DNA of 33,858 bases, taken from positions 1-33,858 of the forward strand of contig JAHEDQ010000021.1 of assembly GCA_024641125.1 (NCBI GenBank), given 5' to 3'. Below, one piece after another: positions 14,049-21,003 of the stretch. This DNA is from Candidatus Competibacteraceae bacterium (GTDB lineage: Bacteria; Pseudomonadota; Gammaproteobacteria; Competibacterales; JAHEDQ01). Within the stretch, counting starts at the first letter, position 1, and each line of letters begins with the position of its first letter. Made by a program: the position numbers and the translations under genes. The notes beneath the pieces are model-generated. The model was not told the origin of the DNA and made no database searches. It saw only the letters and a program-made list of their open reading frames with translations.

Positions 14049-17000
14049 TCAGCGACTCCCGCCCTCCTGTCCGACCGCCTCTTCCTCCCGGGCCGGCACC
14101 ACCCGTACCGGCTCGATTACCGGTGCCTCCCAGCTACCATCGATCGTATACTGCACTCGCAGTACCTTATCGAGACCTTGTTTGAAAACAGTGCCGGCAA
14201 TAAACAATGCCGCGCCCACCGCCGGTCCCCCAGCCATCATGCCGGCCAACGGCAAGGAGCCCCCGACCTGTGGACTGACCCAAAGATCCAGGTCATAGTC
14301 CCGCGCCAGAATCCCGACCCGGCCGGTCATGGACAGAAAGGCAGAGGGCCCTTTGCTCTCCAGGGGTTCCTGGTACATGTTGCCTTCGCTAAAGCGCAAC
14401 TGGGCCTCGATTGAATCAAAGCGATAACCTTCTTCAAACACATCGGTGAAATCCAGCCTCAGCCGCCGGCTGATCGCACCGAGATTGAACAAACCCACCA
14501 GCCGGCCGACGCCTGCCTCCACGTCGGCAATCTTACCGTCCAGTACCTTCAGGTTAACGCGCCCTTCCAGAGTCGCCAGATCGAGTTCTGGCAGAGCCTT
14601 TGCCCAGGACAAGTCGAGCTCAGCACTGGCTGTTCCGCTTCGGGCGGCCTTGCCGAGTCCGAGTTGCCCAAAAGCATCGCCGGCGTCATCCGCGTTGAAC
14701 TGGAGAATCAGATGGGTCAGATCGGCGCCGTCGGAACGGGCCCAGTCTCCTTGTCCTGTCAGCGCATAGTGACGCCCGCTCAGGGCAACCCGTTCCAGGA
14801 GCAATGCGCCGCTTCCGGGCCGGGAAGCCGCCTCCAGTGATCCCAGTGGATCGCCATCGAGCATGAGGTCGTCAACGCGAATCCGCATGGCTGGCAGGGC
14901 ATCGGGTGCCGGCCATGAGCCCGCTTTCGACGGCGGGTCAGGTGGCTTGAGATTCAGGCGCTGGAACCGCGCGTCAAGCGTTCCGCTTCCCAGGGGGCGT
15001 GGCAAGGATACGGCTCCCTTCATCATTGGATCGTCAACCGTCACACGAATTTCGCCGAGGTCGACTTCCGTCCTGACATTGGCCAGATCTGTGCCGAAGC
15101 CGTGAAGATGCCGAAGCTGCAGGTCCAAACGGTCAAGCCCACTCAGATCCGGTGCCGCCAAGCCCTTGCCCATAAATGACGACCAGGCGTCCAGATCCAA
15201 GGTCTCAAGGGCGCCCACCAAGGTGAGCCCGGGGCCAGCCGCCGGTTCGATCTCGCCAGGCCCCAAGCGAACACTGATCCGATGAACCCCTGAGCCGGGT
15301 TCGCGCTGATCCAGATCGAGGCTTGCCCGCACCGGTCCGTACTCGATTTGGATTCGTCCGGGCCCGGACGAATCCAGGCTGTAATCCAGGCTCACGGGAC
15401 GCTCGCTGGACTCCAGCTTTCCCAGCGGTTCGGGTGCCAGAACACCGGTCCCCACAAGGCTGGAATTCAGCCGAAGCCGGAGGCCGCCGTCCGCCCCCGG
15501 CAGCGTCAGGTCAATGCGCCATGGACTCTCGCCCACGACATGCTCGGCCCAGCCGGGTTGAGGCAGGTAGCGGCCAAGCAACGCGCCGGTCTCGAGTTTG
15601 CCTGTCAGGGTCGCGTTCAATTCATTGCCGGCAGCCGATACATCCAGCATCACAGGCCGGTCCCATAGGGTGGCCTGCAAACCTTCAGCAATGAAACTGC
15701 GCTCGGTGAAACGACTTCCGCCGGTCAGTCCGGTAAATTCGATACCCCTCTCACGAATCGCGAGCTCAGCGCCATCGAATGCGAGCGCGCCCTCCACGGT
15801 GGCTGGCGCCATCGGCTTCAAAGGTCGGGAAAAGCGAACTTCAAGCGCTGAGGGACCCGCTAAAGACAGCCGGTCCAGGGTGGCGCCGAGCACCGACTGC
15901 AGAGGGGCCGACGCGTTGACAAAGTCCACCAGCTCAGCGGCATCCGCCGTGACCTGGGTGTCGAGGGTGAGCACGGGCTGTGCGAGATCGGGAATCTCCA
16001 CCCGGGTTTCGCCGGGACTCAGCTGCAACAGACGTCCATGACTTGCTTTGGCCGAAAGGCCGACGCCCCGGAGCGTCAACTCCGCATCCAACTCCTCAAC
16101 CCGTGGCCAGGCCGGATGATAGTCCAGAATCGCATCTTCCACCCCCAACTGGGCGAGCAACACGCCATCGTGATCCCGGTATGGGATCTTGTTCAACGGT
16201 CCACGGATAATGAGACCGCCGTTAGGCATTCGACCATTGATCAGGGATCGGTTGAGCCACTCCACCAGCGGCGCGCGCATGATGCCCACCGGGAGATAAC
16301 GGGACACCGCCGCGACATTGCCGTTCTGAAAGTACGCCTGCAAATCGATTCGATTGGGCTGCCCCCGCCGCCCGCCGTCCAAACGCAGGCGCAAGAGGCT
16401 GGCTGCGTCCGCTGTATCGATGGCGACCTCGTTTGACACCAGCGACCATCCGCCTTCCTCCCATCCAATGTCCAGGATGCCGGACATGCGTTCTATCGGC
16501 AGTGGGTGAGCGAACAGCTCGGGCGCGTTCAAGGTGATATCGCGACTGTCCAGACGGACTGCCAAATGGCGGCCGAAGACGCTCAATTCAGCGGCGGCTC
16601 CGTCGATGCCCGGCACCCTGCCAAACGGGTCATAACCGATCCCGTCCACGCGGGCGCCGCCTCGGACGGAAGCGTCGGGCGCGCTGGGATTCCAGCTCAG
16701 TTCAATATCACTCGCCGTGCCCCGCAAGGTCATCGACGCCAGCTTATCCGGTACGCCGCGCGCTCTCAGCAGCTCGCGCCAGTGGGTCAACTCCGCCAGC
16801 GGGAATCGACTGGCCTCCACGGCCACGGACTCGGGCCGGAGCCAGTTCTCACCCATTGCCCGTACAGCGAAACCCGGCATGCTCCAGCTATCCTTCCCAC
16901 GGCGCAGGCGCACCCAATCGTGTATCAGTGTCCAGCCTCGATCGTCGACCGACCAACGAAAGCTGGTGCTCAGGTCCCGAGGCGCACCCTGGGTAAGCGG

Positions 17001-17864
17001 ATGAGGCAACTTTAGGTTTGCAACGTCCAGCCTTCCGCCCACCCGGGCGAGCCTTCCCAGCGAACCCTCGAGCCAGAGTTCGCCGGTTACAAGGCCCGAA
17101 TGGATATGTTCGGACAGGGGGGACCACGGTATCTGCGCCAAATCCACCGCATCTATCCGGGCATGCATCGACGCCGTCCAGTTCTCCGGCTCCCCGGCTG
17201 GCCCCTGGACATGTCCCACGACGGTCAGGCTCGGTTCCGCATTGCCGGAGGTCGAGATGCTCAACCCCAGCTCGCGATGTTGATCCGCGTTGCGCAGCGA
17301 AAGATCAACCTGGCGATAATGAAGAATCGCCTGGCCGGGGTCCGCGGGATGAACAAACAGATTACCGCCGTAGACATCGAAGCGCGGAAAGGCAGTCGCA
17401 ATTGACAGCACAGTGGGTAGATCCGCTTCCCAGGGCGGCCTGTCTGGTGGGCCCACTCTGAAGCGGCCCTCCGGATCCTGGTAAAGATGGATCGTGGGTG
17501 CCTGGAACCACAACTGGTCAGTGATCAGACGCCCCTGAAGGATCGACCCGACCAGGTCGAACCCTGCGGTGGCGTCGCCCAGTTCGGCCACCGCCGTACC
17601 CTGCGGCGACGCCAACACCTGAAGTCCCGAGATGCGAGCGACCGGGCCGCGGCCCTCCCAGGACAGACGGAGGCTTGATATCCGCACGGGGCGCTGTAAC
17701 TGGTCTGACAAACGCTGCGAGAGCACCGGGCGTAAGCCGTCGCCGAGGATGGGCAAAGCAAGCCGCGCGAGCCCGACCAGCAGCCCGATGAAAATGACGA
17801 GACTGATGACCGAAACCGCGGTCCATCGCCCCATGCGCCGACTCAGCCGGCGCATGCACACCAC
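14049..17864 (-). CDS. yhdP: YhdP-family AsmA-like phospholipid transport protein
   Basis: YhdP is one of the large AsmA-like proteins (with TamB and YdbH) that bridge the envelope and move phospholipids to the outer membrane. The 1271-residue ORF has one N-terminal membrane anchor (about 14-37, ISLVIFIGLLVGLARLALP) after a very basic start, then a long beta-rich periplasmic body of repeated short strands. The conserved C-terminus includes LDGKIADVEAGVGRLVGLFNLGAI and GRVGILARDYDLDLWVSPQ. E. coli YhdP is 1266 residues. The GTG at 17864 or the ATG at 17855 could be the start; neither has a clear Shine-Dalgarno. The gene lies downstream of rng, as in E. coli. It holds a 28-bp perfect palindrome (15349-15376) and a hairpin over its start. 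Confidence 0.93.
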   Translation of the reverse strand: MVCMRRLSRRMGRWTAVSVISLVIFIGLLVGLARLALPILGDGLRPVLSQRLSDQLQRPVRISSLRLSWEGRGPVARISGLQVLASPQGTAVAELGDATAGFDLVGSILQGRLITDQLWFQAPTIHLYQDPEGRFRVGPPDRPPWEADLPTVLSIATAFPRFDVYGGNLFVHPADPGQAILHYRQVDLSLRNADQHRELGLSISTSGNAEPSLTVVGHVQGPAGEPENWTASMHARIDAVDLAQIPWSPLSEHIHSGLVTGELWLEGSLGRLARVGGRLDVANLKLPHPLTQGAPRDLSTSFRWSVDDRGWTLIHDWVRLRRGKDSWSMPGFAVRAMGENWLRPESVAVEASRFPLAELTHWRELLRARGVPDKLASMTLRGTASDIELSWNPSAPDASVRGGARVDGIGYDPFGRVPGIDGAAAELSVFGRHLAVRLDSRDITLNAPELFAHPLPIERMSGILDIGWEEGGWSLVSNEVAIDTADAASLLRLRLDGGRRGQPNRIDLQAYFQNGNVAAVSRYLPVGIMRAPLVEWLNRSLINGRMPNGGLIIRGPLNKIPYRDHDGVLLAQLGVEDAILDYHPAWPRVEELDAELTLRGVGLSAKASHGRLLQLSPGETRVEIPDLAQPVLTLDTQVTADAAELVDFVNASAPLQSVLGATLDRLSLAGPSALEVRFSRPLKPMAPATVEGALAFDGAELAIRERGIEFTGLTGGSRFTERSFIAEGLQATLWDRPVMLDVSAAGNELNATLTGKLETGALLGRYLPQPGWAEHVVGESPWRIDLTLPGADGGLRLRLNSSLVGTGVLAPEPLGKLESSERPVSLDYSLDSSGPGRIQIEYGPVRASLDLDQREPGSGVHRISVRLGPGEIEPAAGPGLTLVGALETLDLDAWSSFMGKGLAAPDLSGLDRLDLQLRHLHGFGTDLANVRTEVDLGEIRVTVDDPMMKGAVSLPRPLGSGTLDARFQRLNLKPPDPPSKAGSWPAPDALPAMRIRVDDLMLDGDPLGSLEAASRPGSGALLLERVALSGRHYALTGQGDWARSDGADLTHLILQFNADDAGDAFGQLGLGKAARSGTASAELDLSWAKALPELDLATLEGRVNLKVLDGKIADVEAGVGRLVGLFNLGAISRRLRLDFTDVFEEGYRFDSIEAQLRFSEGNMYQEPLESKGPSAFLSMTGRVGILARDYDLDLWVSPQVGGSLPLAGMMAGGPAVGAALFIAGTVFKQGLDKVLRVQYTIDGSWEAPVIEPVRVVPAREEEAVGQEGGSR
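15349..15376. repeat. 28-bp perfect palindrome inside yhdP coding sequence
   Basis: TGGATTCGTCCGGG followed at once by its exact reverse complement CCCGGACGAATCCA, with no spacer. It is in frame within yhdP and encodes part of a DSSGPGRIQ stretch. Confidence 0.8.
17832..17856 (-). promoter_or_regulatory. Hairpin covering the yhdP initiation region
   Basis: CATGCGCCG and CGGCGCATG form a 9-bp stem with a 7-base loop. On the yhdP mRNA it covers the ATG at 17855 and the next eight codons, so it could restrain initiation. It might equally be a by-product of the repeated arginine codons in MRRLSRRM. Confidence 0.35.
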
Positions 17865-17920: not shown

Positions 17921-19396
17921 CTACATCAGAACGATGTCGTACTGCTCCTGGGTATACAGTGCTTCGACCTGGAACTTGATCGGAATGCCGATGAAATCCT
18001 CCAGCTCCGCCAGACTGGTAGATTCCTCATCCACCAGAAGATCAACCACTTCCTGCGATCCCAGGACCAGGAACTGACGCGCATCGTACTGCCGCGCCTC
18101 GCGCATGATCTCACGGAAAATTTCAAAACAAATGGTCTCAGCCGTTTTCACGAACCCGCGTCCGTGACACGCCGGACAGGGCTCGCACAGGACATGCTCG
18201 AGGCTCTCACGGGTTCGCTTGCGGGTCATTTGCACCAAACCGAGAGACGATACCTCGCTGAGGTGATTTTTCGCATGATCTCGTTCCAGATGCTTGTCTA
18301 GGGCCCGCAGCACCTGTTCCTTGTGCTCTTCGCTGGACATGTCGATAAAGTCGATGATGATGATGCCCCCCAGATTGCGCAGGCGGAGCTGGCGGGCGAT
18401 GGCCTGGGCCGCTTCCAGGTTGGTCTTGAATATGGTCTCTTCGAGATTCCGGTGTCCCACATAGGCACCGGTATTGACGTCGATGGTGGTCATGGCCTCG
18501 GTCTGATCGACGATCAGATAGCCGCCGGACTTGAGCTGCACCTTGGTGGACAGGGCCTTTTGAATCTCGTCTTCCACGCTGTACAGATCGAAGATCGGCC
18601 GCTCACCCGTATAGTGCTCAATCCGAGGCAGCATTTCCGATACGAACGTGGCGGCAAAGCGCAGTACACGATCATAGGTTTCGCGAGAATCCAGACGCAC
18701 CTTCTCCACCTCTACGCCCACCATGTCGCGCAGAATGCGCTGGGCCAGGGGAAGGTCCTCGTGCAACATGCGTCCGAATCCGGCGGATTCCGTTCGACCC
18801 CGAACCGAGGACCACAGTTTCTGCAAAAAAACCATGTCGCGGCGCAAAGCATCGGCTGTGGCGCCCTCCGCCGCGGTGCGAATGATGTAACCGCCAACGT
18901 CGCTCTGCGCCTGGAGAGTTTCAGAAACGATAGTCTTGAGCCGCTGCCGCTCCGCCTCCTCGTCTATTTTCACGGAAACCCCAACCGTGTCGCTATGGGG
19001 CAGCAACACCAGGTATCGGGAGGGCACCGTGATGTTGGTTGTCAATCTGGCTCCTTTGCTGCCCAGGGGATCCTTGATCACCTGCACCAGGATCTCCTGT
19101 CCCTCCCGCAGCAACTCAGCGATCGCCGCAGGCCGGGTCAGTTCCGAAACTCGGGCCTCGTCGTCATAGGCCTTCGAGATATCAGAGACATGGAGAAATG
19201 CGGCCCGTTCCAAACCGATATCGATGAACGCTGCCTCCATGCCGGGCAACACCCGGCTGACACGCCCTTTGTAGATGTTACCCACGAGCCCCCGATTGCT
19301 GGTGCGCTCTATAAACACCTCCTGGAGAACACCGTTCTCAACAACCGCAACCCGGGTCTCCCGGGGCGTAACATTGATGAGTATTTCCTGACTCAC
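17921..19396 (-). CDS. rng: Ribonuclease G (CafA)
   Basis: RNase G is a 5'-sensing endoribonuclease of the RNase E family that matures 16S rRNA and decays mRNAs. The correct start is the GTG at 19396 (491 residues, E. coli 489), because the family begins with (M)SQEILINVTPRETRVA; the ORF start at 19597 extends into maf. The S1 domain follows (NRGLVGNIYKGRVSRVLPGMEAAFIDIG), then the 5' sensor and the DNase I-like catalytic region with Mg-binding aspartates D306 (TIDVNTGAYVG) and D349 (IIDFIDM), and the Zn-link-type CPAC motif. It lacks the long C-terminal scaffold of RNase E. It shares GTGA with the maf stop, implying coupling. Confidence 0.97.
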   Translation of the reverse strand: MSQEILINVTPRETRVAVVENGVLQEVFIERTSNRGLVGNIYKGRVSRVLPGMEAAFIDIGLERAAFLHVSDISKAYDDEARVSELTRPAAIAELLREGQEILVQVIKDPLGSKGARLTTNITVPSRYLVLLPHSDTVGVSVKIDEEAERQRLKTIVSETLQAQSDVGGYIIRTAAEGATADALRRDMVFLQKLWSSVRGRTESAGFGRMLHEDLPLAQRILRDMVGVEVEKVRLDSRETYDRVLRFAATFVSEMLPRIEHYTGERPIFDLYSVEDEIQKALSTKVQLKSGGYLIVDQTEAMTTIDVNTGAYVGHRNLEETIFKTNLEAAQAIARQLRLRNLGGIIIIDFIDMSSEEHKEQVLRALDKHLERDHAKNHLSEVSSLGLVQMTRKRTRESLEHVLCEPCPACHGRGFVKTAETICFEIFREIMREARQYDARQFLVLGSQEVVDLLVDEESTSLAELEDFIGIPIKFQVEALYTQEQYDIVLM

Positions 19397-20031
19397 TGCG
19401 GCTCCCGACGGGTAACGTGCGGAGCCTGCGTCCATACAGTCGGCGTCAGGCCAAAGTCTCGCAACAGATTCCAGGTTTCGTGCAGGGGAAGCCCCACTAC
19501 GCCGGAATAACTCCCCTCCAAATGCTCTACGAACACGGCTGCACGACCTTGAATTCCGTAGCCACCGGCCTTGTCGACCGGCTCGCCGGTTCGCCAATAC
19601 GCGTCGATCTCGTGCTGGTCGAGGGTGCGAAAACGCACTCGGCTATGCTGAAGCCGAGACTGCTGTCGGCCCCCCGCATCCAGCGCCACCGCACTCATCA
19701 CTGAATGGGTGCGGCCACTCAAGGCCCGCAACATGCCGAGGCCATGGTCCCGGTCCCTCGGCTTGCCCAGGATCTGCTGGTCGAGTACCACTGCCGTGTC
19801 CGCCGCCAGCACCGGAATGTCGCGGGAGGAATCGGCCTGCCTGCGGCCGGCGGCCACTTTGTCCATCGCCATTCTCACCGCATAGAGACCGGCGTCCTCG
19901 TTTGGACGAGGGGTTTCGTCCACCTCTACGGGCAATTGCCGCAATCGGATACCTATCTGTTCCAGCAATTCGCGACGCCGGGGTGAGGACGAGGCAAGCC
20001 AAAGATCAACGGTGGGTTCAGATGGGTGCAT
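19393..20031 (-). CDS. maf: Maf-like dTTP/UTP pyrophosphatase (YhdE type)
   Basis: Maf proteins are house-cleaning nucleoside triphosphate pyrophosphatases; the YhdE branch prefers dTTP, UTP and modified versions. The 212-residue protein shows LASSSPRRRELL (12-23), the VDE motif, AADTAVVLDQQILGKP, DKAGGYGIQG and GSYSGVVGLPL, all family hallmarks. It is immediately upstream of rng with a 4-base overlap, the conserved maf-rng-yhdP order, which argues for the YhdE branch over YceF. The mreBCD genes that often precede it are absent; instead there is a 405-bp noncoding gap containing a perfect palindrome. The ATG at 20031 gives the usual N-terminus. Confidence 0.95.
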   Translation of the reverse strand: MHPSEPTVDLWLASSSPRRRELLEQIGIRLRQLPVEVDETPRPNEDAGLYAVRMAMDKVAAGRRQADSSRDIPVLAADTAVVLDQQILGKPRDRDHGLGMLRALSGRTHSVMSAVALDAGGRQQSRLQHSRVRFRTLDQHEIDAYWRTGEPVDKAGGYGIQGRAAVFVEHLEGSYSGVVGLPLHETWNLLRDFGLTPTVWTQAPHVTRREPQ

Positions 20032-20090
20032 GGTCGGCCCGGGTCCTCTATCGAGATGTAAGCAACCATTATTATCACCTGGATACCAAG

Positions 20091-20144
20091 GGAGCCTCTG
20101 ATTTATTCGTGAACATGCATGTTCACGAATAAATCAGAGGCTCC
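20091..20144. repeat. 54-bp perfect palindrome, possible remnant of paired IS ends
   Basis: GGAGCCTCTGATTTATTCGT plus GAACATG (27 bases) is followed without spacer by its exact reverse complement. It begins 60 bases upstream of the maf start codon. It is AT-richer than its surroundings. A perfect spacerless palindrome of this size looks like the two inverted ends of an insertion sequence with the interior lost, or a small palindromic mobile repeat. No T tract makes a terminator reading weak. Confidence 0.8.
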
Positions 20145-20327
20145 TAGGGAAGGTCGATTGCTGCGGTCGCGCAGACGTCTTGGCATGCGCTCGTACAAAG
20201 CGCACCGAGCGAAGTTGGCCCAAGGCAAATAAGTGAGTTGCCAATGAACAAGCTGCAACGCGGTACGAAGGGCGCAAAGGCCCGGCCCCTCCGGGGTTTC
20301 GCCCGCACGGGCACATCTGCCGCGTTT

Positions 20328-20365
20328 CCCGGCTTGGCCATAGAATGGACTCTGGCCAAGCCGGG
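20328..20365. repeat. 12-bp-stem hairpin downstream of rlmH
   Basis: CCCGGCTTGGCC (20328-20339) and GGCCAAGCCGGG (20354-20365) are exact reverse complements around a 14-base loop. It is 71 bases beyond the rlmH stop on the minus strand. No T run follows, so it is not a typical intrinsic terminator. Confidence 0.6.
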
Positions 20366-20436
20366 AGCCTCGCATCTGCGCCCTTGTGGACCGAAACGCG
20401 ATTCGTATCAATCGACCAGACCTTCCCCAGCGGATT

Positions 20437-20904
20437 TCAGTCCCGATGATAGGGGTGGCCGCGCAATACGCACCATGCCCGATAACACTGTTCCGCCACC
20501 ACCACCCGTACCAGGGGATGCGGCAAAGTGAGTGCCGAGAGTGACCAGACCCAGTCGGCCCGTTCCAGGCAGCGCGGATGAAGTCCATCCGGCCCTCCTA
20601 TCAGCAGCGAGATGTTGCGGCCATCCTGAAGCCATTTACCCAGATGGCGGGCCAGATGCCGGGTATCCAGCTGGTTGCCGCCCTGATCCAGCGCCACAAT
20701 CAAATCCGATCCGGCCAGCCCGAGTAAACTATCCGCCTCCTGGGCTTTGAGGCGTTCCGGATCGTTGGACTTGCTTCGCCTGGGCAAAGGCACCTCGGAT
20801 AGGGTAAGCCTGCACTCGCGTGGCATTCGTCGGGCATAAGTTTCATACCCGGTTCCGACCCATGCCGGCATCCGGGTGCCAACAGCGATCAGACGTATGC
20901 GCAC
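20437..20904 (-). CDS. rlmH: 23S rRNA (pseudouridine1915-N3)-methyltransferase RlmH
   Basis: RlmH is a SPOUT methyltransferase that methylates pseudouridine 1915 in helix 69 of 23S rRNA on assembled ribosomes. The GTG at 20904 gives exactly 155 residues, the family length, and has AGGAGG 7 bases upstream; the ORF start at 20958 adds an unrelated 18 residues. Visible features are RLIAVGTRMPAWV at the start, the SAM-binding LIGGPDG (101-107), SLSALTLPHPLVR (121-133) and the C-terminal HPYH (150-153). It follows rsfS on the same strand, the universal rsfS-rlmH pairing. In E. coli mrdA-rodA come next; here they are missing. Confidence 0.96.
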   Translation of the reverse strand: MRIRLIAVGTRMPAWVGTGYETYARRMPRECRLTLSEVPLPRRSKSNDPERLKAQEADSLLGLAGSDLIVALDQGGNQLDTRHLARHLGKWLQDGRNISLLIGGPDGLHPRCLERADWVWSLSALTLPHPLVRVVVAEQCYRAWCVLRGHPYHRD

Positions 20905-20911
20905 GATTGCC

Positions 20912-20917
20912 CCTCCT
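20912..20917 (-). promoter_or_regulatory. Shine-Dalgarno deciding the rlmH GTG start
   Basis: AGGAGG, a full consensus, lies 7 bases before the GTG at 20904 on the minus strand and settles the start in favour of the 155-residue form. Confidence 0.75.
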
Positions 20918-21003
20918 GGAACAGGGGTACTACTCCGATTGATCCAGTAACAAACCAACCACGCGCCTTGCGCTGACGCAGTTGGAACACTCTGAAGCGC
21001 TAC

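Follow-up and report, generated by a model that had tools for sequence, protein, structure and literature searches.

The intergenic region between rlmH and maf in this Candidatus Competibacteraceae genome raises the question of how a perfect palindrome can arise between two genes and whether it has to have a function there. The inverted-repeat search of the window, i.e., the whole 33,858-nt stretch of contig JAHEDQ010000021.1 that was analysed, confirmed exactly what the first-pass annotation had described, namely a perfect 54-bp palindrome without a spacer at 20091-20144 (GGAGCCTCTGATTTATTCGTGAACATG joined directly to CATGTTCACGAATAAATCAGAGGCTCC) that consists of two 27-base arms. The arms were detected as 20091-20120 and 20115-20144, overlapping and 100% complementary, and the centre lies between 20117 and 20118, i.e., between ATG and CAT. 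No other inverted repeat in the window is as long and, based on the composition of the window (61% GC), such palindromes are expected by chance about 7e-12 times in the window and about 1e-9 times in the 4.76-Mb genome. The next perfect palindrome, which is 28 bp long (TGGATTCGTCCGGGCCCGGACGAATCCA), was found at 15349-15376, inside a long ORF on the minus strand (14049-17864). We consider it likely that the 54-bp palindrome, present in one copy, was derived from an IS5-type MITE that was inserted at this site and rebuilt in place to a minimal form, beside which a second MITE now lies.

Searching its own genome (4.76 Mb, a draft of 357 contigs) with the 27-base arm, which had been suggested as a check, did reveal the parents, i.e., a MITE family and IS5-family insertion sequences (ISs) whose ends are of the same type. 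The arm had 35 matches with up to three mismatches and the 17-base terminal core had 148 matches with up to two, compared to none for either of the reversed patterns. We collected 38 full copies, which is a partial census of the probable 75 or more in this genome; 34 of them were 158-162 bp long, the consensus was 160 bp and the mean divergence from the consensus was 11%. The copies in this genome are old. With its multiple dispersed copies that lack a transposase gene, the ~160-bp element qualifies as a MITE family. Both of its ends have a common 18-bp repeat, GGAGCCTCTGAT[C/T]TATTC, after which they diverge into GTGAACGTGCATCTTGGG on the left and TGGACGAAGCAGATTGGA on the right. Shortened relatives of 49, 57, 88, 94 and 108 bp also occur. 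The flanks follow Y-T-A-R, a 4-bp target that is duplicated on insertion; they agreed at three or more of the four positions in 74 of the 110 copies from this and other genomes compared to 38 in shuffled pairs (maximum 52). In its own genome alone, an exact match at all four positions was found in three of the 38 copies compared to 1.9 in the shuffles, which is no excess, and the claim of a YTAR duplication therefore rests on the three-of-four measure and on the other genomes.

The terminal inverted repeats are common to the MITE and to autonomous IS5-family elements, which emerged when IS5-type transposases were sought in the genomes that hold the 18-bp ends. Nitrococcus mobilis carries a multi-copy 1176-bp IS with the ends GGAGACTCTGAACTATTC and GGAACGTCTGAACTATTC at YTAR sites, and Biocath_Gamma_008 carries an 1169-bp IS with the ends GGAGCCTCTGAACAATTC and GGAACCTCTGATCAATTT; both full transposases belong to NCBIfam IS5_4 (E <1e-101). 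In NORP163, which carries a 159-bp MITE, the end GGAAGCTCTGATTTATTC lies beside an IS5-type transposase that is cut by the end of the contig. In the genome of the palindrome itself, only broken IS5-type transposase genes were detected, and a decayed IS5-type copy has the end GGAAGGTCTGATTTATTC. The MITE ends are two to four mismatches away from the IS5-type ISs of the other genomes and three away from this decayed copy. Among the intact ISs of the genomes searched, none had exactly the end of the MITE; a second transposase search in further MITE-bearing genomes gave only more distant or decayed ends, and none of the ORFs next to the unpaired ends of other genomes encoded a transposase. Five PF01609 transposases from its own genome were also considered as candidates and rejected, as none had the right ends. 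The likeness to the IS5-family ISs and their MITEs thus comprises the type of end sequence, the IS5_4 DDE transposase of the full-length relatives and the 4-bp C(A/T)A(G/A)/YTAR duplication, which aligns with the C(A/T)A(G/A) target that is duplicated by the IS5 of E. coli (PMC11677980). The palindrome differs from them in having neither a coding sequence nor an interior, just two identical left ends.

The symmetry of the palindrome ends at the MITE terminus, outside which the flanks read ...ACCAAG and TAGGGA.... The left arm (20091-20117, plus strand) is composed of the 18-bp terminal inverted repeat of the ~160-bp MITE and the 9 bp that are specific to its left end, with two mismatches to the left end of the family consensus and five to the right end. 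The right arm (20118-20144, minus strand) is an exact inverted copy of the left one, and its inner 9 bp fit the left-end consensus and not the right-end one. An IS5-derived MITE is expected to carry one normal end of each kind, left and right, and because the inner 9 bp on the right are left-end sequence, the palindrome is a derivative and not a standard member of the family. To the left lies CAAG (20087-20090), the presumed target-site duplication of the MITE in view of the YTAR target of the family and the target of IS5. To the right, CTAG (20144-20147) serves both as the flank of the palindrome, whose last base is its C, and as the left flank of the second MITE. The two flanks differ by one base and the C is shared with the element, which makes the duplication imperfect at this copy.

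It had been suggested at first that two IS ends were brought together with the interior gone. Transposon ends without an interior are indeed what is present, but both arms are left ends and an internal deletion is insufficient; if only the interior had gone, right-end sequence would be expected in the right arm, and yet its inner bases match the left end. Moreover, a simple deletion of any of the collected copies leaves at least four mismatches to the palindrome, and a template switch on the closest copy, L003, leaves two, one per arm. We propose three steps. In the first, which is well supported, a ~160-bp hairpin MITE would have been inserted at a CNAG/YTAR site in the rlmH-maf junction, presumably with an IS5-family transposase acting in trans. 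In the second, which we infer from the sequence, this copy would have been rebuilt during replication; the nascent strand may have copied the left end up to the self-complementary ATGCAT (20115-20120, within AACATGCATGTT), folded back there, copied the left arm in reverse and rejoined the normal template somewhere in the 18-bp repeat that is common to both ends. Such a switch would have deleted about 106 bp and left a second, identical left arm adjoining the first in inverted orientation. AACATGCATGTT is a natural 12-bp palindrome and a possible fold-back point for the nascent strand. At this turning point, L003 and L017 read GTGAACGTGCATGTT, and one CpG-type change, G to A, in that of L003 would produce AACATGCATGTT. 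A route in two stages, in which quasipalindrome correction acts after an internal deletion, would account for the second step almost equally well. The third, which is supported by the anatomy of the site, is the insertion of a second MITE of 279 bp, whether earlier or later, at the CTAG directly beside the palindrome. Template switching that makes imperfect inverted repeats perfect has been documented in E. coli (PMC7202029), and the creation of hairpins by template switches has been argued from sequence histories (PMC8794818). As in the quasipalindrome correction and template-switch mutations described by Ripley, Lovett, and Monttinen and Loytynoja (2022), an imperfect inverted repeat appears to have been perfected with one arm serving as the template for the other. 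The difference is that here the process is deduced from one natural locus and that ~106 bp would have been removed as well.

The perfect 54-bp form has no second copy in its own genome and is absent from the 368 other genomes of the class (369 were searched including its own). For this reason, it looks like a dead-end derivative that was formed in place, and it is most likely a fossil and not an active element or a regulatory site. The first-pass annotation had also offered a minimal palindromic mobile repeat; the structure fits this description, but the idea that it is still mobile does not agree with a single copy in a genome whose IS5-type transposase genes are only decayed. For the same reasons, it is unlikely that the palindrome itself was the minimal unit that transposed here, with its two left ends recognised by an IS5-type transposase, although both of the ends are complete and very short forms do occur in other genomes, i.e., the 49-bp and 57-bp elements (L082 and L102) with YTAR-like flanks, which are independent of it and both imperfect. 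The arms are also perfect, yet the target duplication has already diverged, and transposase complexes require some length between the ends.

On the minus strand, rlmH (SPOUT methyltransferase; 20437-20958) is transcribed before maf (19393-20031; PF02545, 2.3e-57), and the palindrome lies between them, 59 bp upstream of the maf ATG, with maf as the first gene downstream. In 17 of the 18 relatives that have both genes, rlmH and maf adjoin each other or overlap (-13 to +10 nt), and in the one exceptional relative the spacer is ~110 bp; here, it is 405 bp. Directly next to the palindrome is the second MITE (20148-20426), which is 279 bp long, has the ends GGAAGGTC...GATTG and CAATCGACCAGACCTTCC and is flanked by CTAG and CCAG. 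It had 48 matches in its own genome, and the other copies define its boundaries and the CTAG-type flanks. Its family is about 280-287 bp long with ends that are similar to GGAAGGTCTGATCAATTG. Given the tight junction in the relatives, the 405-bp spacer can be read as two elements plus a short leader, and it is the palindrome and the second MITE that separate rlmH and maf and have turned a coupled operon junction into this spacer.

This arrangement also bears on whether the palindrome is an artefact of assembly or amplification, i.e., a fold-back chimera at a hairpin-forming MITE, which we regard as quite unlikely. The assembly is a draft of many contigs, hairpins promote chimeras and the perfect form is unique, but a fold-back chimera would run on into the same flank reversed, whereas the flanks here are distinct and sensible, with the maf leader on one side and CTAG with the second MITE on the other, and the arms end at a known MITE terminus. 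Even less probable is that two separate MITE copies were inserted head to head and then lost their inner parts; this would yield two left arms directly, IS5-type elements favour YTAR sites and a second MITE does adjoin, but an extra insertion would be needed together with a deletion that ends exactly at the symmetry axis, and copies that are ~11% from the consensus would have had to supply identical arms.

The RNA folding predicted a very stable hairpin for the palindrome (z -8.7). This is in line with the long RNA duplex that had been anticipated for transcription from rlmH into maf; in a transcript that reads across the site, a 25-bp RNA hairpin would form in front of maf, and it might affect the expression of this gene. 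No intrinsic terminator was called at the palindrome, and no U-run follows the stem on either strand. In Rfam, the palindrome matched only sub-threshold microRNA models at both thresholds, as any perfect hairpin does, and the full ~160-bp MITE had no match. The MITE family resembles the Correia elements of Neisseria, ERIC and other hairpin MITEs in being short, non-coding, mostly intergenic, able to fold as a whole into a hairpin and a potential substrate of RNase III, and differs from them in its ends, target and hosts and in the lack of an Rfam match. The Correia elements, which are hairpin MITEs, are RNase III targets (PMC10969869), and this precedent, the predicted stability and the location just before maf are what speaks for a maintained regulatory element, either an RNA hairpin or RNase III site that controls maf and the following genes or a protein-binding palindrome. 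Such a role is improbable, since the stem has neither a U-run nor a terminator call, in relatives rlmH and maf lie end to end with no element of this kind, no second genome has the palindrome and the MITE family is scattered and not tied to maf. The first-pass annotation had reasoned that an unstable palindrome must be either recent or maintained; selection to maintain it was not supported. Palindromes of 54 bp are tolerated in bacteria, and strong instability concerns those of ~150 bp and more.

Beyond this genome, the 18-bp end was found at 95 or more loci in the GTDB genomes and, among the matches listed, almost all were from Gammaproteobacteria, mostly environmental assemblies; the named hosts among them include Dyella, Nitrococcus mobilis and a Lamellibrachia endosymbiont. 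At many of the listed loci, paired ends were 157-162 bp apart. Across these loci (L067-L161), a ~159-161-bp hairpin MITE with the same ends is spread over many Gammaproteobacteria; it comes in subtypes of 159 and 161 bp, and its arms covary strongly. In the same-strand alignment of 32 copies from this and other genomes, a common hairpin of 47 pairs was found with 94.9% of the cells paired. Eighteen pairs had changed on both sides, in 98 cells compared to 31 in the shuffles, a contrast that is inflated by relatedness, and to at most 15 when the partners were slid, a control that retains the relatedness but in which the structure comes from the same alignment, which favours the hairpin. The covariation of the arms can be explained either by selection on the hairpin or by homogenisation through template switching. 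We suggest only tentatively that the ~160-bp hairpin MITE is an undescribed element of many Gammaproteobacteria whose arms stay complementary as the sequence diverges. The literature searched, outside most subscription journals and ISfinder, held nothing relevant on the end sequence or on an IS5-type MITE of this kind, and the plasmid and phage records had no match to the 160-bp consensus.

Other combinations of the ends were also observed. In Dyella (L068, L131, L155 and L159), the same 18-bp ends surround quite different, longer palindromic interiors of 274-319 bp, which suggests that the ends captured inverted repeats unrelated to the MITE. At L095:567, L103:5767 (Nitrococcus mobilis), L107:2698 and L142:6977, single ends run straight into a GTCA-type CCGGC inverted repeat, and it seems that an intergenic repeat of another kind has been joined there to an IS5-type end.

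The palindrome belongs to an ordinary class, the MITE derivatives, in an unusually clean form; a striking structure is explained without a regulatory function, and it illustrates the collapse of a MITE to two identical ends. It is also worth mentioning that two small elements interrupt a junction at which the genes lie close together in the relatives. A more interesting lead than the palindrome itself is its parent MITE family, with the covarying arms. With dozens of copies per genome and many hosts, the parent MITE is suitable for asking whether template switching or selection is the source of covariation, and confusing the two matters when structured RNAs are called. If the arms are homogenised by template switching during replication, the perfect palindrome would be a snapshot of that process and the MITE family would be a natural test of covariation without selection on the RNA.
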